Position numbers and translations under genes: made by a program. From NCBI GenBank assembly GCA_015228785.1, contig JADGCU010000011.1, positions 1 to 33,111 of the forward strand: a stretch of DNA of 33,111 nt, written 5' to 3'. The notes beneath the pieces were generated by a model. The model was given only the letters and a program-made list of their open reading frames with translations. It was not told the origin of the DNA and made no database searches. Every line of letters begins with the position of its first letter. Within the stretch, counting starts at the first letter, position 1. Source of the stretch: Candidatus Omnitrophota bacterium (GTDB lineage Bacteria; Omnitrophota; Gorgyraeia; Zapsychrales; Fredricksoniimonadaceae). Below, piece by piece: positions 927-14,449 of this stretch.

Positions 927-1466
927 TTATTTATTAAGAGTCAAGACCAACTTCCTAGTACCATCTGCCAACACGACTGTATTCTCTTTGATTTCCTGGA
1001 CTGTCAACCCCATAACAACAGAACCTGCCCCAACAACCTGACCATTGATAATCGCATTAGGCTGACCACCCTTCCACAAAATCCCGCTCAAAATAAACTT
1101 CTTATTGTCAATATCTACCTTTCTTTCAACCAGAACTTTATCAGGCAACGTATTGATTACCTTACTATCAAATGGATTACGATCTCCCCAAGCTGCATCA
1201 AGAACCACTTCAGAAGAATCATTATCCTCTTCAATCAAACGAATCAACTCCGCGTTCCCCACAAAAGATTTTTCTACCAAAACTGCTGGTGCCACTTCCT
1301 TGATCGGTTTTGAATCGCTGACAACTGTCTTCTTTGGCAAAGGCGCTACGGCCTTGACATGTGATTTACGTTGGGCGCTGGGGCTTGTTTTCTGCGCAAG
1401 CGCCCATGAAGAAGTTGCCATCATTAATACAAGAACCGAACAAACAATTCGTTTATTTTTTTCCAT
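927..1466 (-). CDS. PilP/GspC-like periplasmic pilus assembly protein
   Basis: Last gene of the pilMNOP-like block. N-terminal signal/TM; C-terminal small beta domain 'FILSGILWKGGQPNAIINGQVVGAGSVVMGLTVQEIKENTVVL'. Start chosen at MEKNKRIV rather than the longer ORF start at 1490. Confidence 0.65.
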   Translation of the reverse strand: MEKNKRIVCSVLVLMMATSSWALAQKTSPSAQRKSHVKAVAPLPKKTVVSDSKPIKEVAPAVLVEKSFVGNAELIRLIEEDNDSSEVVLDAAWGDRNPFDSKVINTLPDKVLVERKVDIDNKKFILSGILWKGGQPNAIINGQVVGAGSVVMGLTVQEIKENTVVLADGTRKLVLTLNK

Positions 1467-1980
1467 AATTTCTCGCCACAAATAATACAAATGTTATTTT
1501 AGCTGTCACAAGATTCGCATTCGCCTTATCTGGCTCCAAATGAAGAGCCTCCACATCAATCAGCCCCTCAGGCATATTTCGAACACCAGTCAAGAAATTA
1601 CCTAAATTTTGTAAAGACGCTGAAACCCGCATATCGAAAAGAACCTTGCTAAAGAAAACCCCCTCATCCTTGGCTGTAAACGGCGGTCGTAAAGTCTTTA
1701 AAGACGCCTTATTTTTGGCCGCTACCTTTTTAAGGGCTTCCAAAACAGATGCTATCTTACTTTGATCAATCAAACTGATCCCTATCTTTGAAATCTTCTT
1801 GGTCGCTAGAAGGTCACGAGCCATCTTAGCTTCTTGAACATAAGCCGCTTCCTGCTTACTCGTTGCTGCGATCACTTTGAAAAAAGACTGACACAAAATG
1901 AAAGTGCCCAAAGTTAAAAGGATGGCAACACCCGCTACTCCCACAGGAATCAAAGGTTTTAGATTTACCTTAATATTCAT
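1453..1980 (-). CDS. PilO/GspM-like inner-membrane assembly protein
   Basis: One N-terminal TM, coiled coil, then a ferredoxin-like region; 4-bp overlap with the PilM-PilN gene. Confidence 0.65.
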   Translation of the reverse strand: MNIKVNLKPLIPVGVAGVAILLTLGTFILCQSFFKVIAATSKQEAAYVQEAKMARDLLATKKISKIGISLIDQSKIASVLEALKKVAAKNKASLKTLRPPFTAKDEGVFFSKVLFDMRVSASLQNLGNFLTGVRNMPEGLIDVEALHLEPDKANANLVTAKITFVLFVARNYGKK

Positions 1981-3704
1981 TGCCTCCCTCCTCCAGAGCC
2001 GAGACGGCCTTGAATTTGAAAAAGCTCGGTAGCCTTTCCCGGAACGGTTTTTTGTCCTGGCAAAACTCTCGCATCAGGCATAATTCCTTTCCCAAAATCT
2101 TCAGCCAACTGCTCCGCTACCTCTCTGACCCCCTTATCTGCCCCCACAACAAAACCAGCCATGTCCACTTTGCCACCTTTAAAGTCCAACTTTGTCAAAT
2201 AAACATAAGAGGGCAAATAACTCAACTGCTTAATAAAACCACCTAAATCCGGACGATTACGAATCATTTTTCTCAAAAGAAGTCCGTTCTTTAGCTCGAG
2301 AAGTTTAGGTTCCAAAGATTGACATTCTTTCATAGCAACCTGAACGCGCGCTTTTGCCCAATTCGTCCTGGCCATCGTGATAAAATAAAAAGCACTTAGG
2401 ACCGCAAAGAACGCAATGGCTCCTCCCACCAATAGAAGGCGCTCAAAAGAACGCTTCTTCCGTTCTTTCAAAGGCGCAGGGACAAGATTGATGCCCTTAA
2501 TATCACCCAAAGAGGCACCGATCGCCTCAACAAGACGCTGCGCCTCATCTCGATTGGGCAATACACCATCATAAAGAAGCTCCACATCCTGAACAGGATT
2601 GCCTAAAGCTACCGGAAGCCCCAATTCCGCATTCAAAAACTCAGGAAGCCCTTTTAAGCGCGAACCACCGCCAAAGATAATAATCCGGTCGACTCGTCCT
2701 GAGCGCATCTTTTCCTGATAATAATCAAAAGACCGGCTGATCTCGGATGCCAATTGTTCAAGTTTCGGACGAAGCAGGGATAAAACCTGACCAGATGTGA
2801 TCTTGCCTTGTATAAGAAAATTCTCTCCGGGCGCCGGGATCCCATATTCTTTCTTAATCTCCTCAGCCATTTCTATCGTGAGTTCAAGCTTGCCGGCACT
2901 GGTGGATAAAGCCGTTGTCAAACTACGCGTAAAATCATACCCTGTGACAGGGATTTTGCGCGAATACTCCAATTGGGAATTGCGATAAACATTAAGTTCC
3001 GTTGCGATGGTCCCCATCTCAATAACTGCCATGGTCTCATCCATGCGCAACTTAGATTTCATCATAATATTTTCAAGAGCGACCGATAAAGGAACAACAG
3101 CATCCACATTGATTCCCACGGGATTAGAAATCACCCGATCAAACCCGGCCAAAGGCTTGGCCTGTTGGACAATAAAATTCGCTAAAAGATCATCAACCGC
3201 CGTCTTCGGCGCCGCGGCCACCAAAACATTGACCTTCTGAACACCCTTATCCGCAACACGGCCAATAACCTTAAAATCCACAACCGGCCTATCCAGAACA
3301 AAATGAGGAGAACTGCTGACTTCGAGCTTGATCGCTTCCGCCAGCTCTTCCAACGGCATCACCGGCATCACAATAGTCTCAATAACTGTCTGACTACTGG
3401 GCAAAACACAAATGATATCCGCCAGCCGCGTATTAAATTTAGATAACGCCCGTTTTAACGCCTCAAGTGCGGCCGTATCCCGTTCCCGTTCATTAACCAA
3501 CGCAATATCTTCAACCGCCACCTTGATCAAAGTCGGTTTTCCATGATGAAGAGCAGTCTGCGCCACATTGACAGAACTGACGCCAATATCAATCCCAATA
3601 ACCGTCTTTCCCTCCTCGAGGGTCCTTTGAAGATCGAGAATCTCTGTAGAAAGGAAAGTTTTATCTTTTGGAGGCATCACGTTGTTTTTTTCAACCATAA
3701 ACAC
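1977..3704 (-). CDS. PilM-PilN fusion protein (actin-like ATPase plus PilN-like TM/periplasmic domain)
   Basis: N-terminal 'TVIGIDIGVSSVNVAQ' and 'IIIFGGGSRLKGLPEFLNAELGLPV' are typical of PilM. From about aa 405 'INLVPAPLKERKKRSFERLLLVGGAIAFFAVLSAFYF...' resembles a PilN N-terminus plus TM plus periplasmic domain. Confidence 0.85.
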   Translation of the reverse strand: MFMVEKNNVMPPKDKTFLSTEILDLQRTLEEGKTVIGIDIGVSSVNVAQTALHHGKPTLIKVAVEDIALVNERERDTAALEALKRALSKFNTRLADIICVLPSSQTVIETIVMPVMPLEELAEAIKLEVSSSPHFVLDRPVVDFKVIGRVADKGVQKVNVLVAAAPKTAVDDLLANFIVQQAKPLAGFDRVISNPVGINVDAVVPLSVALENIMMKSKLRMDETMAVIEMGTIATELNVYRNSQLEYSRKIPVTGYDFTRSLTTALSTSAGKLELTIEMAEEIKKEYGIPAPGENFLIQGKITSGQVLSLLRPKLEQLASEISRSFDYYQEKMRSGRVDRIIIFGGGSRLKGLPEFLNAELGLPVALGNPVQDVELLYDGVLPNRDEAQRLVEAIGASLGDIKGINLVPAPLKERKKRSFERLLLVGGAIAFFAVLSAFYFITMARTNWAKARVQVAMKECQSLEPKLLELKNGLLLRKMIRNRPDLGGFIKQLSYLPSYVYLTKLDFKGGKVDMAGFVVGADKGVREVAEQLAEDFGKGIMPDARVLPGQKTVPGKATELFQIQGRLGSGGGRQ

Positions 3705-3770: not shown

Positions 3771-6761
3771 TTATTCTTGCCATGACCCATTAACAAACGT
3801 TGCCTGTGTTGCAGATGATGACGCACCACCTTCCTCATAAAGACGAAGCACCTCATCCGCCGAGAGAACACGATTATAAAGGCGCACTTCATCAACGTCC
3901 CCGATCCATTTATGATGATAAGAACCGTACTCACCTCCACCGATTGTCACCGAAGAAGAATTGCTCGGCAACGGACCCGCAAAGGTGGCAGAAGCAACTA
4001 ACGCCCCGTCATAATACAAACGCTGTTGGCCATTCTGATAAGTCGCCGCAACATGATGCCAAGAACCATCTCTCAAATTAAGACTTGTATTATCAATATC
4101 AACATTACCAGTACCCGCATTCCAAACAATAAAAACAGGACTATTACTGTGGCCGCCTTCCACCCCACTACCTATGTATAATTCAAAAGGGTTGCTATTG
4201 GGCCACTCGGCCTTTGAGAACCACATCCTGTAAACATCCTGTTGTCCTGGATCAGACGTCTTTACCCAAGTCGCAATAGTGTAAACGCTGGAAGAAAGAT
4301 CGATATTGCCAACGTCGATATAATTAGTTCCATCAAAACGAACCGCTCCCGTACCCACCTTGCCTGCGATCCGGGTTGGGCTACCTACCAGCGTACCTGC
4401 ATGGCCATTACCGCTTGAATCTGCGGTGATCGTTCCTGATCCTTCGTCAAATTTCCACCAGCCGACGAGCGCCGCATCATCATACAACGAACGCGCATGA
4501 GCGGCTGTTAGCGCCGTATTATAAATGCGCATCGTATCAAGCCGTCCGCTCACAACTTGGGAGCTGCAAGTCGAGGTTTGCGCCCCAAGAACCTTAACAA
4601 GTCCCGCATCGCTAATGGTCGCAGACTGAGTCCTTGTGTTATTAAGGGCCCCGTTAATATACAATTTATAATCTGATCCGCTAAAAACTCCCATCACATG
4701 TGACCATTGATTCAACGGGATCGCTGAGGCTGAATTCACATACTGCCCCCCTGCCCCAAAACGGATATATCCAGCTCCCGTATCAGCAGCCGTCAAGGTC
4801 TGAAGCCACCAGCCATTATTTGAATTATGTGTATACGCCAAGGAATTATACGCAGCAAAACTTGTTGGATATACCCAGCTACTAATCGTCACCTTGTTCG
4901 CAGAGGCGCAGGAAAGGATTGAACTCACAGTTCCACACTGATTACTCCCATTAAGACTGATCGCCCCCCTCTGAACACCATTTGTCCACGAAGGAGAATT
5001 CACCAGTGTCGCTGTATACGCATTTGCGCTGTTATCCACAACAGAGGTTCCTGCCCCCTCGTTAAAATACCACAATCCCCTCAAACCCGCCGGATGACCC
5101 TCCCTGTACATCCGGAGGATCTCATTACCACTCAAAGCACTATTGTAAATACGCACATCATCAATATAACCGTTAAAACCCCAAGCACCACTCTCGTAGG
5201 CACCTATATTCACATGGGCTCCACTAGTTGATGGAAGAGCAACTGTACCTGTGGTCTTTACAAGACCATTATGATAAATCTGCCCGGTTGTTGAACTAAT
5301 CGTTCCGCAAACAAAATTCCAAGCATTAAGGTTCAAGAGCGACCCCGAACTCATCTGCGTCCAACTATTCCCACGCAATGATATTGCCAACCCCTCTTGG
5401 TATATTTCAAACGCAACAGGAGAAACTTCCCCTGTTCCATGAATAACAATTTCTTTAACTTCATTTAATTTGGGATAAACCCAAGCACATACAGATATAT
5501 TTTGAGAAAGGGCCACGTCCCCAGTTGTAACAACTCCATAGTTTCCGCAACTGCTCCCGCAACCTGGGGTCCCATTAAAACTCAATGCCCCGTTTATCTG
5601 CCCATTCGTCCACGTCGGGCTATTGACAAGCGTGCCGTTATTTCCATATAAACTACCATCAACCGCTAGCGAGCCAGAACCGTCATCCAGTTTCCACCAC
5701 CCCACAATCCCAAGCCCCTTTTCATAAAGATCTTTGACTTCATAAGCCGAAAGCGCCCGTGTATAAATACGCGCCTCATCCAAACTACCGCTAAAACCCC
5801 AGGAACCGTCATATCTGGCCCCTACACTCCAAGGGAGCGAGGTGGCGGTCAACCCCCAGGCAGAGCCAGTCTCTATCGCTGCCAAGGAACCATCAATATA
5901 AAGTTTATAATCGTAGGTCGCGCCATTCTTCTCCATGACCCCCACGATATGATGCCACTTGTTGTCCTGGACACCTCTGGAGGCATCACAAGCCATATAA
6001 TGATTAGAAAGACTATGGTCATAATGCCCAAAACATACGCCATTATAAGTATAATTTGTATTTATGGATATCCCATCCTGGGTGTCCCAAACTCCTCGAG
6101 CTAATATATCCGCCCATACATAAGGCGGGCCCTTCTTGATCCAGATCGATAGCGTAATATTGTCATAACTATCCTGAAGGATATTGCCGAGGGTGATATA
6201 TTTTCCTGGAGTAAATCTAAGGGCATTATCGATCCGTCCCGCAACAACAGCAGGATTCCCCACCACCGTTGCTGTATAATTATTACCGCTCACGTCAGGG
6301 GTCGTGCCGCCGGACTTGGAGTCCAGACTTAACTGAAGCTGCGGCGCACTTGTAAAAGAATCTAAAGTGATCTGTTTCGAAACAGTTCTCGTCGTGCCCT
6401 TATACGTTCCGACGCACGTGATCGTGATCGTGTCCCCTGATGAGGCAACAGTCATCGTATAGGTCCCGAGAGAAAGATCGTTGTCGTCCAAATTTTGGGT
6501 TGTGCCTGTAGTGCGCCAGATAGCGCCAGGAGAGTTGTCAGGTGCGGTATGAAGCAAATACCATATCGCTTTATTCATTCCAGCCTCAGCCAGATAAAAA
6601 GCTCTTTTAGAATTTACCTGCCCGGCTGTAATCCGTTGAGAATTGATCACTGACGACAAAAATGTTGACGCAAAGACGCCCAGCACGGTCATGAACATCA
6701 ATGTCAAAAGCATTAAACTGCCGCGGGGACTCAAAAGCGCTGGCTTTCGTAACATGGTCAT
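3771..6761 (-). CDS. PilX/GspK-like minor pilin with four C-terminal LamG/concanavalin A-like repeats
   Basis: N-terminal 'SPRGSLMLLTLMFMTVLGVFASTFLSSVINSQRITAGQVNSKRAFYLAEAGMNKAIWYLL' is PilX_N/GspK-like. Four repeats follow the LamG pattern 'GWWKFDEGSGT..DSSGNGHAGTLVGSPT......WHHVAATY...LYYDG......GDVDEVRLYNRVLSADEVLRLYEEG'. Confidence 0.85.
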   Translation of the reverse strand: MTMLRKPALLSPRGSLMLLTLMFMTVLGVFASTFLSSVINSQRITAGQVNSKRAFYLAEAGMNKAIWYLLHTAPDNSPGAIWRTTGTTQNLDDNDLSLGTYTMTVASSGDTITITCVGTYKGTTRTVSKQITLDSFTSAPQLQLSLDSKSGGTTPDVSGNNYTATVVGNPAVVAGRIDNALRFTPGKYITLGNILQDSYDNITLSIWIKKGPPYVWADILARGVWDTQDGISINTNYTYNGVCFGHYDHSLSNHYMACDASRGVQDNKWHHIVGVMEKNGATYDYKLYIDGSLAAIETGSAWGLTATSLPWSVGARYDGSWGFSGSLDEARIYTRALSAYEVKDLYEKGLGIVGWWKLDDGSGSLAVDGSLYGNNGTLVNSPTWTNGQINGALSFNGTPGCGSSCGNYGVVTTGDVALSQNISVCAWVYPKLNEVKEIVIHGTGEVSPVAFEIYQEGLAISLRGNSWTQMSSGSLLNLNAWNFVCGTISSTTGQIYHNGLVKTTGTVALPSTSGAHVNIGAYESGAWGFNGYIDDVRIYNSALSGNEILRMYREGHPAGLRGLWYFNEGAGTSVVDNSANAYTATLVNSPSWTNGVQRGAISLNGSNQCGTVSSILSCASANKVTISSWVYPTSFAAYNSLAYTHNSNNGWWLQTLTAADTGAGYIRFGAGGQYVNSASAIPLNQWSHVMGVFSGSDYKLYINGALNNTRTQSATISDAGLVKVLGAQTSTCSSQVVSGRLDTMRIYNTALTAAHARSLYDDAALVGWWKFDEGSGTITADSSGNGHAGTLVGSPTRIAGKVGTGAVRFDGTNYIDVGNIDLSSSVYTIATWVKTSDPGQQDVYRMWFSKAEWPNSNPFELYIGSGVEGGHSNSPVFIVWNAGTGNVDIDNTSLNLRDGSWHHVAATYQNGQQRLYYDGALVASATFAGPLPSNSSSVTIGGGEYGSYHHKWIGDVDEVRLYNRVLSADEVLRLYEEGGASSSATQATFVNGSWQE

Positions 6762-6778: not shown

Positions 6779-7273
6779 CTAATTCCTGGGCCTGATTTTT
6801 GTACGCACATGAACAATGGTACTGTTTTTAGTCGCCGTCATGTCTACGGTCACAAGATTATTGGCATAAGCAAAGACAGACCGCTGAATCCCTGTGGCCC
6901 ATACAGTTCCCATCCCGTAAACATACGTATCATTCACAACGGTCTTAATTAAATCATACGATATATTGTCATTATTATAAGCCTGACCAGGATCGTCAGC
7001 GCTGTACAAATACCAACGATAACCGAGTCCGTCTTTATTAAAATAGAGACTATTATCTACATTCTCTAAACTAATATTGGTAGCGTTAGAAAGATCCTGG
7101 GTGATCATATCCACGGACAGGGCCAATGAGGTTCTTAACCCTGTACGGTCCTCCCCCGCATTCCAAATCTTTATAGACGTGAGATAAACAGAGACAACTG
7201 ATGCTGTCAAGACAGTCGTCAATACAATAACCAGGATCAACTCCAAAAGAGAAAACCCGCGCCTTTTCATCAT
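6779..7273 (-). CDS. Pseudopilin/minor pilin, GspJ/PilW-like
   Basis: Prepilin motif 'MMKRRG/FSLLELILVIVLTTVLTASVV', followed by a GspJ-like body 'SVDMITQDLSNATNI'. Confidence 0.8.
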   Translation of the reverse strand: MMKRRGFSLLELILVIVLTTVLTASVVSVYLTSIKIWNAGEDRTGLRTSLALSVDMITQDLSNATNISLENVDNSLYFNKDGLGYRWYLYSADDPGQAYNNDNISYDLIKTVVNDTYVYGMGTVWATGIQRSVFAYANNLVTVDMTATKNSTIVHVRTKIRPRN

Positions 7274-7671
7274 GAGCTTGGTGTCATATCCACAAGATAC
7301 GTCTGAAGGGTCACCGTGTACTCATCATCAAGATCTGTCCAATAGACGTTGACCGTCACAAGCGTAAGACCCTCGTTATCTACTTGGGGAGTAATCACAA
7401 CTTCCCGCTGATACTCAGGAAAGTCTGCATCTATAGGCCCCTTTTCGCTGGCCTCTGCCTCAAGAAGAGGAAAAGAAGTGTTAATTAACTCTTCCATCCT
7501 TTCCTGGGCAAGCAGGGAAGCAATAGCTCTGTTTTCAGAACTAGCATCTACTGATGTTCCACTAGCCAGGGCTTTGACCACCGAAATGACACCTACAACC
7601 AAAAGGATCGTTGTGATCAAAATCTCCAACAACGAAACCCCTTGCCTGCGTAGAGTTCGCCTGCTTTTCAT
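7270..7671 (-). CDS. Pseudopilin/minor pilin, GspI/PilV-like
   Basis: Prepilin motif 'RRQG/VSLLEILITTILLVVGVISVVKALASG'; 4-bp overlap with the downstream GspJ-like gene. Confidence 0.8.
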   Translation of the reverse strand: MKSRRTLRRQGVSLLEILITTILLVVGVISVVKALASGTSVDASSENRAIASLLAQERMEELINTSFPLLEAEASEKGPIDADFPEYQREVVITPQVDNEGLTLVTVNVYWTDLDDEYTVTLQTYLVDMTPSS

Positions 7672-7698: not shown

Positions 7699-8052
7699 TC
7701 AATTATAAGGATGATTCTTGTTCGTTTGCCCCTGAGCATTTGGAATGTTTCCCTTAAACATACAACCATAATCACAGCCCTCAAGGATATTAGTCTGCTG
7801 ATTAATAGTACAAGACGTTCCTTCATCAAGACAAAGCCAAAATGTATATCTTGTTGATCCGGATTCATCAACATAATTAAACATGTTGTACCTTTGGGAA
7901 CTAACGCCTGTGGGCGAAAGGACTGTTCCCGTTTCTGCCCCTACGAAATATTCCTTAAGATCATCTATCCCGCTCCATACCGGATCTACGCATACAACAT
8001 TAAACAGTAAGAAAATCAAGCATAGAAAAGAAACCATATGGAGCTTTTTCAT
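7699..8052 (-). CDS. Small secreted Cys-containing protein; candidate C-terminal half of a split pilin (PilA-C-like)
   Basis: Start at MKKLHMV preceded by GTGAGGAATTT (SD). Signal-peptide-like 'MKKLHMVSFLCLIFLLFNVVCVDPVWS'; mature region has four Cys and 'GSTRYTFWLCLDEG', resembling 'GSTYYVVYGLLDSE' in the neighbouring full-length pilins. Confidence 0.6.
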   Translation of the reverse strand: MKKLHMVSFLCLIFLLFNVVCVDPVWSGIDDLKEYFVGAETGTVLSPTGVSSQRYNMFNYVDESGSTRYTFWLCLDEGTSCTINQQTNILEGCDYGCMFKGNIPNAQGQTNKNHPYN

Positions 8053-8092
8053 AAATTCCTCACTTTGCATTGACTCTCAACTGCCTGTTATA

Positions 8093-8290
8093 TCACTCCG
8101 GTAACTGTCCATGATGATTGGCCATATACGCCTTTGCAGCAGCATCAAACGATGCCAACTCTGCCTGGATCGCGGCAATACTCGCCTCTTCCTGCATCCC
8201 CTTGAACCTAGGTATGGAGATACCGATCAACACCGCAATAATTGAAATTACGACCATAATTTCAAGTATAGTGAAGGCATTTTTACCCAC
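8093..8290 (-). CDS. Short pilin consisting of the N-terminal helix only (PilA-N-like), GTG start
   Basis: 'MGKNA/FTILEIMVVISIIAVLIGISIPRFKGMQEEASIAAIQAELASFDAAAKAYMANHHGQLPE*' aligns with the first half of the two neighbouring pilins. SD AAGGAGAAAGT directly upstream. Confidence 0.85.
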   Translation of the reverse strand: MGKNAFTILEIMVVISIIAVLIGISIPRFKGMQEEASIAAIQAELASFDAAAKAYMANHHGQLPE

Positions 8291-8341: not shown

Positions 8342-8851
8342 GGAACCAGTAACCTGCCCTTAGTCGCAGTTAAACCCATTCGTCACACAAAGAGAATCCG
8401 TAGCTGCTGATTCTGTTACTTCGCCATCCGCATCACTTATCGATACTGTTGCCTCAGAATCCAGCAATCCGTAAACAACATAATAAGTTGAACCATCAGT
8501 AGAACGCGCGATTTCATAATCTAAAGTAGGAAGATACGCATTCTTCAACCCCGATTCAATGATTCGTGGTCTGGCCCCTTCTAATGTTGTCACTGAATCA
8601 GGATACACTCCCATCGAGTTCTTGTAAGACTCTACTGCTGCCTGAATCGTCCTTAACTCTGCTCTCATCTTCAGAATATTCGCTTCATCCTGCATGCCCT
8701 TGAAACGAACTAAACCGAAGCCGACCAAGATCGTAACAATTGAAATAACAACTAAAATTTCAAGTATAGTGAATGCTTTTTTATTCACACTATCTCCTTC
8801 GAATAAAATATTACCTTAGGATCACCAAAAACCCCAAGGAACCAATAACCT
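8342..8851. repeat. Tandem pilin gene duplication, unit about 0.5 kb (second unit continues to 9284)
   Basis: Near-identical DNA in both genes ('ccatcagtagaacgcgcgatttcataatctaaagtaggaagatacgcattctt' around 8484-8537 and 8985-9038), and conserved 3' flanks 'ggaaccagtaacct' 8342-8355 versus 'ggaaccaataacct' 8838-8851. Confidence 0.75.
8360..8788 (-). CDS. Type IV pilin paralog (GTG start; Ala at -1, Val at position 22)
   Basis: 'MNKKA/FTILEILVVISIVTILVGFGLVRFKGMQDEANILKMRAELRTIQAAVESYKNS...' with a C-terminal pair of Cys. Confidence 0.9.
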   Translation of the reverse strand: MNKKAFTILEILVVISIVTILVGFGLVRFKGMQDEANILKMRAELRTIQAAVESYKNSMGVYPDSVTTLEGARPRIIESGLKNAYLPTLDYEIARSTDGSTYYVVYGLLDSEATVSISDADGEVTESAATDSLCVTNGFNCD

Positions 8852-8858
8852 AACCTTA

Positions 8859-9284
8859 CTAGCAACCAGACCCATTCGTAACACAAATAGCATCCGCATC
8901 TGGTGTTTTTGTTACTGCACCATCCGCATCAGCTATTTCTACTGTTGCTTCAGCATCCAGCAATCCATAAACAACATAATAAGTTATACCATCAGTAGAA
9001 CGCGCGATTTCATAATCTAAAGTAGGAAGATACGCATTCTTCATGCCCGTTTCAATGATTTGTGGTCTGGCCGTTTCTAACGTTGCCACTGCATCAGGAT
9101 ACTCACCGATCTGGTTCTTGTAAGACTCAATAGCGGCCTGGATCGTCCTTAACTCTGCTCTCATCTTAAGAATGTTCGCTTCATCTTGCATACCCTTGAA
9201 ACGCGGGATAGCGATACCGATCAGGATCGCTATGACTGAGATCACAACCAGGATCTCAAGAATCGTAAAACCTTTGTTTTTCAT
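8859..9284 (-). CDS. Type IV pilin, candidate major pilin
   Basis: 'MKNKG/FTILEILVVISVIAILIGIAIPRFKGMQDEANILKMRAELRTIQAAIESYKNQ...'; canonical Gly -1, Glu5, Pro22. Confidence 0.9.
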   Translation of the reverse strand: MKNKGFTILEILVVISVIAILIGIAIPRFKGMQDEANILKMRAELRTIQAAIESYKNQIGEYPDAVATLETARPQIIETGMKNAYLPTLDYEIARSTDGITYYVVYGLLDAEATVEIADADGAVTKTPDADAICVTNGSGC

Positions 9285-9349: not shown

Positions 9350-10585
9350 CTAACGGTGGATCGTCTTGATCATGTCAAACATCGGCAAAAGAACACTGGC
9401 CAAAATGCCTCCTACGCAAACACCTAAAATACTAATAAAAGCAGGTTCAATATATACTAGCAGACCTTTGATAGCATATTCAACCTTATTCTCATAAAAA
9501 TCAGCAGCCTTATTAAGCATGGGTCCTATCTTACCTGTCTCTTCCCCGACAGAAAGCATATACACCACATCCGCGGGAAACTCTTTATGTTTTTTAAGAG
9601 GACCGCTTAATCCCTCACCTTTCTCGGCGCTGTCTCGTACCTCCTGAACAATTTCTGAAAAAAGGCTATTATCAATAACTTCCTTTAAAATAGTGAGCGC
9701 CTGTAAAAGCGGAACACCGGCATTCAATAACGCCCCCATCGTTCGCGTAAAACGCGCCACCAAAACATTGCATCCCAAGCGACCAAACACCGGAACTCTT
9801 AAAATAAACCTTTGCCACTTATCGCGAACTTTAGGGATCTCAAATAAATACCTGACCAAAAAAAACAAAGCGACCAGTCCCCCAATAAAAAACAGCCAAT
9901 AATGCCTCAGCCATACTCCCACGCCATTAAGCATCCTCGTAGGTAATGGTAATACAATTCCCGCCTTCTCAAAGATCTTCACAAATTGTGGCATGACAAA
10001 AGTAATGATCAAAAGAATAACACCAACCCCTGCCACGATCAGAATCATTGGATAAATTAAGGCACCATGAATCTTTTGCCTGAGATCATCCTGTTTTTCA
10101 AGGAACACGGCCAGCGTCTTTAAAACATCGTCCATGGTACCAGATATTTCACCAACCCGCACCATGTTGATAAAGAATTTTGAAAAGACCCTAGGGAAAT
10201 TCTCAAGTGCACTCGACAACGATGACCCCTCAGAAACCATCCTGGCGACACGCCGTACAACTTCCCCCAAATAAGGATTTTCAAGCTGCCCAGAAATAAC
10301 ATTCAAAGCGCCCATCAATGTGATACCGGCACTGATCATGCTGGAAAGATTTATACAAAGAGCTAAAAGATCCTCTGTCTTAACAGGTCTTACCGCAATT
10401 TGCGGAGTCTTGACAACTTTCTCAATCTTAACCTTAGTAGATCCGCCCCGATCAATTTTAACAGGTGTACATTGAAGCTGGCGTAACTGGCCGATCACAT
10501 CCTGCTCGGATTCGGCCATCAAACTACCTGTTACGACCTGCCCCGTATTGTTTCTGGCCTTATAAGAATACTCAACAAATGGAAT
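9350..10585 (-). CDS. PilC/GspF inner-membrane platform protein, probable ATT start at 10585
   Basis: GspF domains ('MISAGITLMGALNVISGQLENPYLGEVVRRVARMVSEGSSLSSALE', 'VPLLQALTILKEVIDN', 'SVGEETGKIGPML'). The listed ATG (10522) lacks the conserved N-terminus; 21 further in-frame codons read (M)PFVEYSYKARNNTGQVVTGSL. Confidence 0.9.
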   Translation of the reverse strand: MPFVEYSYKARNNTGQVVTGSLMAESEQDVIGQLRQLQCTPVKIDRGGSTKVKIEKVVKTPQIAVRPVKTEDLLALCINLSSMISAGITLMGALNVISGQLENPYLGEVVRRVARMVSEGSSLSSALENFPRVFSKFFINMVRVGEISGTMDDVLKTLAVFLEKQDDLRQKIHGALIYPMILIVAGVGVILLIITFVMPQFVKIFEKAGIVLPLPTRMLNGVGVWLRHYWLFFIGGLVALFFLVRYLFEIPKVRDKWQRFILRVPVFGRLGCNVLVARFTRTMGALLNAGVPLLQALTILKEVIDNSLFSEIVQEVRDSAEKGEGLSGPLKKHKEFPADVVYMLSVGEETGKIGPMLNKAADFYENKVEYAIKGLLVYIEPAFISILGVCVGGILASVLLPMFDMIKTIHR

Positions 10586-10598
10586 AGCTTAACTCCTC

Positions 10599-12218
10599 TT
10601 ATTCTTCCTGTGTAACACGAAAAACTTCCTCTTTTCCTGTCAACCCCTCAGCCACTTTCTCCATACCGCAATCCCGCAGGCTCTTCATGCCATGAGAAAC
10701 GGCCGCACGATGGATCTCATCTGAAGAGGCCTTGCGTAAAATAAGCGAACGAATCTGCTCATTAAACACCAACATTTCATAGATACCCGTACGTCCCTTG
10801 TATCCGGTCGCAGAACAACTCTTACATCCTCGACCATCGCACGCCTTACAAAACAAACGAACCAAGCGCTGCGCAACAACCCCAATAATCGAAGATGACA
10901 ACAGAAACGGCTCCACGCCAATATCCAAAAGACGTGTAATAGCTCCTGCGGCATTATTAGTATGAAGCGTGGCCAAGACCAGGTGCCCCGTTAAGGCTGC
11001 CTGAATAGCAATCTGAGCTGTTTCCGCATCACGGATTTCCCCTACCATGATCACATCCGGATCCTGTCTCAGGATCGCTCGTAAACCACGGGCAAACGTA
11101 AGATCAACCTTAAGATCAACTTGTGTCTGACGGATGCCCGGCAGACGATATTCCACAGGGTCCTCGATCGTCACAATAGAGAGCTCTGGGGAATTAATCG
11201 TACTGACAGAAGAATATAACGTGGTCGTCTTCCCGCTTCCCGTCGGACCTGTAACCAGAATGATCCCATTAGGACGATCTAAAAGAGCACGGAATTTTGT
11301 CAGATTTTCATTGAGAAGACCAATCTGTTCAAGCCCCAAATTAATACTCCCCGTATCCAAAAGGCGCATCACCACATTCTCACCATAAACCGTCGGAAGA
11401 AAAGACACGCGAATATCAATTGGCCGGTTGGCTATCTCCATGCGAATGCGTCCGTCCTGAGGCTTGCGATGTTCCGCGATATCCAGGCTCGACATGATCT
11501 TGATACGTGAAATAATAGCCGCCCGAAACTGTTTCGGCGGTTGAGCCTGCTGATGAAGAACTCCATCAACACGAAAACGAATACTCAAGGTTCGCTCCTC
11601 AGGTTCGATATGAATATCAGAGGCCCCGTCATTAACGGCATTAGAGATCATCATGTTAACAAACTTGACGACCGGTGGCTCCTCCCCAATATCCTGTAAA
11701 CGATGAATCGCGATCTCTTCCCCTTCATTAACACCTAATTTACTATCATCCAGGGACTTGATCACATCCTGCATGTTCCCCCGAACCATATAATGATCAT
11801 CCAGGGCCTTCTTTATCTCATCTTCCGTCGATATCGCCGGTTCGATCACAAGCCCTGTCTTTAAAACCAACTCATCAACAGCATGGACATTAAACACATC
11901 CACCATGGCACATGTTAAATTATTAGCGATCCTCATCACGGGAACAACTGAATACTTGCGCGCTAAATCCTCAGGAATCAAATCCAGGACCTGGGGATCA
12001 ATCTTCTGGTTTCCCAACTCAATACGGGGAATACTGGCCTGCTCTGAAACAGTATCTGCCAACTGCTCCTGAGAAATAAAACCAAGTCGCGGCAATACCT
12101 TAAACAAGCTATCGCCCGTCTTCTTTTCCTCACTCCTGGCCTGTTCCAACTGCTCACGAGTGATAGTCCCCTTTTCAAAAAGGAGTTCCCCAACAGTTTT
12201 CTTGGCGTACTTATTCAT
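10599..12218 (-). CDS. PilB/GspE family assembly ATPase
   Basis: Walker A 'GPTGSGKTTTLYS', Asp boxes 'EDPVEYRLPGIRQTQVD', Walker B 'RQDPDVIMVGEIRD', tetracysteine 'CKACDGRGCKSC', MshEN-type N-terminus. Start MNKYAKK with SD GAGGA. Confidence 0.95.
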   Translation of the reverse strand: MNKYAKKTVGELLFEKGTITREQLEQARSEEKKTGDSLFKVLPRLGFISQEQLADTVSEQASIPRIELGNQKIDPQVLDLIPEDLARKYSVVPVMRIANNLTCAMVDVFNVHAVDELVLKTGLVIEPAISTEDEIKKALDDHYMVRGNMQDVIKSLDDSKLGVNEGEEIAIHRLQDIGEEPPVVKFVNMMISNAVNDGASDIHIEPEERTLSIRFRVDGVLHQQAQPPKQFRAAIISRIKIMSSLDIAEHRKPQDGRIRMEIANRPIDIRVSFLPTVYGENVVMRLLDTGSINLGLEQIGLLNENLTKFRALLDRPNGIILVTGPTGSGKTTTLYSSVSTINSPELSIVTIEDPVEYRLPGIRQTQVDLKVDLTFARGLRAILRQDPDVIMVGEIRDAETAQIAIQAALTGHLVLATLHTNNAAGAITRLLDIGVEPFLLSSSIIGVVAQRLVRLFCKACDGRGCKSCSATGYKGRTGIYEMLVFNEQIRSLILRKASSDEIHRAAVSHGMKSLRDCGMEKVAEGLTGKEEVFRVTQEE

Positions 12219-12247
12219 GCTGTTCCTCAACCATCATCATCAAAAAA

Positions 12248-12655: not shown

Positions 12656-14449
12656 CTATTTCTTAAGAACTTTGACAGGGGGATCTTCTCTAATAATAAA
12701 TGCTTCCTTGGGGCATCCACGAACCAAAGCCTGGGCTGCGTCAATGTAAGAACTTTGCGGGAACCTGTCTTGCAGTTGGGCCAAGGCTTCCTGAGCTGCC
12801 CCACATTTACCAAAATCTTTCACATAAAGATTCGCGATCTTGAATAAACAGTAGTCGCTTTTTCCAGATAAAGGAAACTCTTTCAAAATAGTTTTATAGG
12901 TCTTTAACAACTCTAATTTTAAATAAAGATTATCTGATTTCTTTATATCCGCATTACTCTCAAGGTCGCTGACATAGGATAAAAGACCTGTTAGCATCTC
13001 GGAATCAGGAGAAACAGCTGCCTGATCAATACGAACTTCATTAGGCATATCGGACTTGACTATTTTTCCATTGGAAACTTCTGGGACCTGAAAGGCCGCT
13101 TCCTGCCCTGGAGAACGAATAATATGAGGCGTAATAAACACCATCAACTCAGACTTGACATCATTAGACACATGCTGCTTAAAGAACCATCCCAAAATAG
13201 GAATAGACCTTAACAGAGGAACTCCGTCCTGAGACGCTGTGTTCACATTGCTAATAAGACCCCCTATCACAATCGTCTCATTGTCCCTGACCCGGATCGT
13301 CGCATCCGCCTCGCGAGTCGAAACAACAGGACCATCCGTTGAAGGCGTTGCGGAAGAAACTTCCGGATGAACCTTCATCGTGATCCATCCATCAGGTGAG
13401 ATCATGGGTGTTACCTTGAGCGTCGTTCCCACATCTATGAACTTGACACTCTGGGTAGTCGTTGTATTTGTCACGGTAGATTCTTTGTAAGGATATTTGT
13501 TTCCAATAATAATCCGCGCCTCTTGACCGTTAAGGGTCGCAATAGACGGGGCCGCCAAAACGCGTGCCCTTTGCTGCTGAACAAGCATGTTGATGGTCAT
13601 ATCTGTATCAATAAACTTCTTAAAACGGGGAATCAACTGGAGTACCCCCCCCGCTGAACCCGATCCGGTAATTGTCGTCGTCGTATTTGTATCCGTAGTG
13701 GCGGTGCTTCCCCCGCTCGTTATCGTTGCCGAAGCAAGGTCACTTCCCGTTGGACTATATGTCGCGTTCAAGACCGTCCCGATATTCTGGGCATCTGTTG
13801 TGTTCATATCCACAAGCTTAGCCTCAATCAGGACCTGCATAGGCGGCTGATCGATCCCCTTGACCATCTCCTTAACATCCTTAATGATCTCAGGGACATC
13901 CGTCACGATAAGAGTATTTGTCGCATCATTGATCTGAAGCGCTCCCCGTTTTGAAATCATCCTGGTCAAGAGACCCTGAGCATCCTTGGCCAACATAAAA
14001 CTTAACGGAATAAACTCCGTAACAAGATCGACATCCGATTGAGGAACGATATAAACTATATTATCCCTTCGGGAAAACCCATACCCATTCACGCGAAGAA
14101 TAGCATTTAACGCATCATCAAGAGAAATATCCTTTAACTGAGCAGTCACCTTCCCTTTTATATCTGTAGCAAGAATAAGATTAAGGTCATATGACGCTGC
14201 TATCGCCTTAAGAACAGTAGGCAAATCAGCGTCAATATAATCAAAAGAAAGAAGGTCCTTAACTGTAGTTTTATTCTCAGAAGCCGCTTTCGCAGAAAGT
14301 TGCCTCACGCCCAAAGGAGTTTTTGTTTCTTGGGCCTTCTGTTTTGATGCGGGTTGAGGTTTCGGTTTTGCAGCCCAAATCGGCGTCTGACTAAACATAA
14401 AAACAGTACACATCAGAATAAGACAACAACGGTCTAAAACACGCATCAA
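12656..14449 (-). CDS. Secretin (PilQ/GspD family) with C-terminal TPR-like extension
   Basis: STN/N0 'LLSFDYIDADLPTVLKAIAASYDLNLILATDIKGKVTAQLKDISLDDALNAILRVNGYGF'; secretin core 'VPLLRSIPILGWFFKQHVSNDVKSELMVFITPHII'; C-terminal 'YKTILKEFPLSGKSDYCLFKIANLYV...ALAQLQDRFPQSSYIDAA'. Confidence 0.92.
   Translation of the reverse strand: MMRVLDRCCLILMCTVFMFSQTPIWAAKPKPQPASKQKAQETKTPLGVRQLSAKAASENKTTVKDLLSFDYIDADLPTVLKAIAASYDLNLILATDIKGKVTAQLKDISLDDALNAILRVNGYGFSRRDNIVYIVPQSDVDLVTEFIPLSFMLAKDAQGLLTRMISKRGALQINDATNTLIVTDVPEIIKDVKEMVKGIDQPPMQVLIEAKLVDMNTTDAQNIGTVLNATYSPTGSDLASATITSGGSTATTDTNTTTTITGSGSAGGVLQLIPRFKKFIDTDMTINMLVQQQRARVLAAPSIATLNGQEARIIIGNKYPYKESTVTNTTTTQSVKFIDVGTTLKVTPMISPDGWITMKVHPEVSSATPSTDGPVVSTREADATIRVRDNETIVIGGLISNVNTASQDGVPLLRSIPILGWFFKQHVSNDVKSELMVFITPHIIRSPGQEAAFQVPEVSNGKIVKSDMPNEVRIDQAAVSPDSEMLTGLLSYVSDLESNADIKKSDNLYLKLELLKTYKTILKEFPLSGKSDYCLFKIANLYVKDFGKCGAAQEALAQLQDRFPQSSYIDAAQALVRGCPKEAFIIREDPPVKVLKK

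Follow-up and report, generated by a model that had tools for sequence, protein, structure and literature searches.

Does the type IV pilus operon of this Omnitrophota bacterium encode a pilin that is divided into two separate proteins? The operon is located on the minus strand of the window, i.e. the whole stretch of 33,111 nt that was analysed (contig 107 in a draft genome of 2.02 Mb, 123 contigs and 82% completeness). In Geobacter the pilus consists of a heterodimer of PilA-N (61 aa) and PilA-C (104 aa) (PMC11046646). Both are present in equal parts in the pilus (PMC12954529). The pair was proposed to go back to a single full-length gene that underwent fission (PMC5174107). An earlier note on this DNA had suggested a comparable arrangement for the third tandem pilin and the gene that follows. 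Our analysis favours a split pilin of the PilA-N/PilA-C kind whose origin is separate from that of Geobacter, with a probability of roughly 0.6.

The operon begins with a secretin (12656..14449 (-), PF00263, E 7e-50) and a response regulator, followed by the assembly ATPase PilB/GspE (10599..12230 (-), TIGR02533 and TIGR02538, E about 1e-178) and the platform protein PilC/GspF (9350..10522 (-), TIGR02120, E 1.6e-100). Then come two full-length pilins, pilin 1 (141 aa, 8859..9284 (-)) and pilin 2 (142 aa, 8360..8788 (-)), each with PF07963 and a partial TIGR01710 match and 76% identical to one another. They are followed by the short, helix-only pilin (8093..8290 (-)) and a secreted 117-aa orphan protein as candidate detached pilin head (7699..8052 (-)). 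Downstream lie a PilV/GspI-like minor pilin (7270..7671 (-), TIGR02523, E 1.1e-7, below its cut-off), a minor pilin at the PilW/GspJ position (6779..7273 (-), PF07963 over cut-off), a 996-aa protein at the PilX position (3771..6761 (-)), a PilM-like protein (1977..3704 (-), PF11104, E 1e-28), a PilO-like protein (1453..1980 (-), PF04350, E 1.2e-5) and a gene at the PilP position (927..1490 (-)). The latter was assigned by its place in the operon, its weak matches being all below the cut-offs.

The short pilin had been described as a helix-only copy of 65 codons that stops where its paralogs read YPD, and reading the sequence confirmed this. It starts with GTG at 8290 behind a Shine-Dalgarno (SD) sequence (TTAAGGAGAAAGT-GTG) equal in strength to those of pilins 1 and 2. 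Its end reads MANHHGQLPE-TGA, the TGA taking the place of GEYPDA in pilin 1 and GVYPDS in pilin 2. By its class III signal it is a type IV pilin (PF07963, E 6.6e-5, and TIGR02532, each over the cut-off). The prepilin motif with Glu5 is joined to a hydrophobic helix, and the mature part starts with FTILE and comprises about 60 aa. The residue preceding Phe at the cleavage site is Ala in the short pilin (KNAFT) and in pilin 2 (KKAFT) and Gly in pilin 1.

The description of the second gene held as well, including its own SD, a signal peptide and a mature part with four Cys. It begins at 8052 (ATGAAAAAG), 40 nt past the short pilin, and extends over 117 codons to 7699. Upstream we find GTGAGGAATTT-ATG with GAGG five bases 5' of the ATG; an alternative in-frame ATG at 8070 lacks an SD. 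The signal peptide (KK followed by a hydrophobic stretch) and the prepilin cleavage site were both read by eye from the sequence. The mature protein has a size of about 91 aa.

Are these genes intact? Both ORFs share the codon usage of the large genes in the window, and 0 of 500 random synonymous recodings were as good. The helix of the short pilin is intact at about 40% divergence. Moreover dN is smaller than dS wherever both were computable, with synonymous sites mostly saturated. Apart from the secreted ORF itself, no remnant of a pilin head was found 3' of the stop in any frame, and simple recent decay is therefore unlikely. Judged from the sequence, the short pilin has a clean gene end and no fresh nonsense mutation. 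Read-through of the TGA was rejected, as numerous stops interrupt the frame downstream and the secreted ORF is read in a different one. Alternatively the short pilin might be a truncated, non-functional copy of a duplicated pilin, with the work left to pilins 1 and 2 and the pair being lost. Full-length pilins at the same locus of relatives, a long branch of the short pilin (0.81 in the helix tree described below) and the occurrence of the pair in one genome only would fit such a scenario. Against it speak the preserved SD, helix and codon usage, dN < dS where measurable and the missing head remnant, and we regard it as improbable.

The pair was studied in a single draft, metagenome-derived genome, and the fragmentation into 123 contigs leaves some room for the short pilin being an assembly or sequencing error. 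However, a single error could not create a second ORF with signal peptide, SD and normal codon usage, and the contig continues past the locus on both sides. An artefact is thus highly improbable.

The pilin locus was read in nine related genomes (L064-L072), with contig ends interrupting L065 and L068. Where covered, the pilin cluster comprises between one and four full-length pilins. PilV usually comes next; in L072 it is separated from the pilins by other pil genes. None of the clusters covered combines a helix-only pilin with an adjacent gene for a secreted protein, so the conserved adjacency that the earlier note had named as a check did not hold: relatives carry only full-length pilins at this locus. 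According to the same note, full-length copies there would mean local decay. The first part of this statement applies, but decay itself is unsupported in view of the SD, codon usage, helix and missing remnant. Among the matches listed from 386 genomes of the phylum and 83 of the order, no second helix-only pilin turned up clear of the contig edges. Other short pilins were discarded, since those on G359 C12, G359 C180 and G010 C8 reach the contig ends and that on G231 C52 lies near one. With the head of pilin b, a full-length pilin of the related genome G007, as query, heads were found in 386 genomes of the class only within frames of at least 111 aa. Neither the pair nor a homolog of the secreted protein was detected among the relatives searched. 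Hence, by these searches, the pair is lineage-specific as far as sampled. In G000 and G001 a pilin helix and head of the present class open long frames of 667, 418 and 1018 aa (G000:C2:18478-18894, G000:C101:5855-6280 and G001:C20:11834-12247, respectively), which suggests fusions to large extra domains.

In a tree of the helix region (58 residues) the short pilin clusters with pilin b of G007 (Ca. Omnitrophus SulCav_GS10_10_48_10, a different genus of the same family) at a support of 91/84. Because of the few columns and the long branch this placement is tentative. Of all full-length pilins collected, pilin b also gives the best gapless match to the short helix, with 61% identity over 56 residues. 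In G007 it is the last pilin before PilV, and the short pilin occupies the equivalent operon position. Kinship of the short helix with the full-length pilin b of this relative has moderate support. The earlier note had expected the full-length copies next door to give a before/after view of the split. This does not apply to pilins 1 and 2, which form a clade of their own (99/94), but pilin b of another Omnitrophota genome offers a candidate for the 'before'. Tentatively, the unsplit state would be of the pilin b type and not that of the adjacent pilins 1 and 2.

Does the secreted protein represent the missing head? It had been reported to share a motif with the C-terminus of the full-length pilins. 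The motif pair GSTRYTFWLCLDEG / GSTYYVVYGLLDSE is indeed present, but local alignment on it yields p = 0.16 against shuffles. No significant similarity of the secreted protein to its own pilins 1 and 2 was found, nor of its gene to their 3' halves at the DNA level (p 0.34-0.73). The head of pilin b gives a local p of about 0.01 against shuffles (rank 1 of 72 by score) and a p of 0.032 in global alignment. Among 50 pilin heads it shows the highest z (3.3) and the second-lowest p. Its score is equalled by 3 of 1178 unrelated real windows, all of them EGF-like Cys repeats or similar. A CDxxC motif, found in the secreted protein, occurs in pilin b only among the heads compared, and pilin b is one of two heads that likewise have four Cys. 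Comparison with head profiles resulted in p values of 0.007, 0.016, 0.047, 0.013, 0.12 and 0.18, the mean score against 20 heads in a local p of 0.002 and a global p of 0.012, and hhalign in 0.33 (local) and 0.047 (global), whereby several of the head tests were picked after earlier results and hence are not independent. Taken together the similarity is weak, and suggestive of a secreted protein derived from the head of pilin b.

The secreted protein has no homologs in the related genomes searched or in genome_contigs, and no significant match to any family in Pfam and TIGR profile searches. A phmmer search against all PDB chains returned two chance-level matches only, neither of them a part of a pilin. 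A MORN-like match between the end of the secreted protein and L033 (score 64) was rejected: Pfam finds no MORN repeat, and the match is of chance level because the locus had been fetched by a weak match to the secreted protein itself, obtained from a single genome out of 56 with E 0.025. Further weak matches (L029-L032 and L084) overlap unrelated genes and were discarded. AlphaFold without alignment predicts an all-beta protein past the signal peptide with low confidence (pLDDT 44). With an alignment that presupposes homology the pLDDT is 52, a rise which proves nothing since homology is already presupposed. A fold search with both low-confidence models retrieved no pilin structure or other match.

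One may ask whether the short pilin acts on its own, as a minor or filler pilin made of the helix only, next to an unrelated pilus-associated or periplasmic newcomer, with no two-piece head involved. The lack of significant family homology, the part of the profile tests without significance and the fold search are in line with this. On the other hand, helix and secreted protein both match pilin b best, and CDxxC is common to the secreted protein and pilin b. We consider this explanation unlikely, albeit less so than the truncated duplicate. Of the proposed PilA-N/PilA-C-like arrangement, the helix-only pilin and the adjacent secreted protein within one operon stand, while the homology of the partner to pilin heads is suggestive.

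For the preferred split pilin the following course would be the likeliest. The last full-length pilin gene of the operon would have split in this lineage. Its first half would have retained prepilin signal, membrane helix and assembly contacts, stopping in the loop after the helix, and the four-Cys head would have acquired its own signal peptide and be exported on its own. Once in the envelope, the head would bind to the mature short helix at the end of the latter and join the filament with it. One PilB/PilC machine could then use the two-piece subunit alongside pilins 1 and 2, both full-length. Export, pairing and filament entry of the two proteins we infer from Geobacter. An independent split in one lineage, with an unsplit counterpart in another genus and filaments that may mix one- and two-piece subunits, has in our view a slightly better than even chance of being correct.

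In organisation the pair resembles that of Geobacter. The pilin ORF ends in the post-helix loop, as a helix-only pilin of about 60 aa like PilA-N, and the next ORF of the operon encodes a second protein whose length of about 100 aa is near that of PilA-C. Mature sizes are about 60 and about 91 aa here and 61 and 104 aa in Geobacter (PMC11046646). In contrast to Geobacter, the pair resides in a different phylum, is accompanied by two full-length pilins in the operon, is not conserved in relatives and has a short pilin of low aromatic content; the pairing of the two proteins is putative here. Geobacter PilA-N as a specific match of the short pilin was dismissed, for pilin 1, cut to its first 65 aa, yields the same top match with a stronger score. 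Homology of the secreted protein to PilA-C (GSU1497) was not found by phmmer against PDB chains; the two may be remotely related. Among Omnitrophota pilins of the GspG/PilA class, pilin b resembles the pair in helix, operon position and the CDxxC of the head, but is one continuous protein with the head attached, in contrast to the two ORFs here.

The two-piece pilins with structure and fission model that we found in the literature are those of Geobacter, which are tied to the debate on conductive filaments. An independent case in a second phylum, if true, would make pilin fission a repeatable step, and the unsplit relative would make it possible to compare, before and after the split, the way in which a head is bound without covalent link. 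Conductive short pilins usually have an aromatic content above a threshold of about 9%. Only 4 of 60 residues (6.7%) are aromatic in the short pilin, below the high aromatic content of such e-pilins, and owing to this low content we do not propose conductivity. Conductive pilins in Omnitrophota were predicted from aromatic content (PMC10066038); on these predictions the locus bears as a case of a pilin that is short yet not rich in aromatic residues.

Two further features of the operon were observed. Four Laminin_G_3 domains (PF13385) are found in the 996-aa protein at the PilX position, which is possibly an adhesive tip. Its positional counterparts in L066 and L070 have 144 and 153 aa, and in G007 (L064 4099-5040) no PilX-position gene is seen from the PilW-position pilin to PilM. 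Between pilins 1 and 2 a terminator-like hairpin of 10 pairs is located at 8839-8814 (-), followed by TAATATTTTA. Such sites number 3, with 1.7 expected by chance. The hairpin might determine how much pilin 1 is made relative to the downstream genes.
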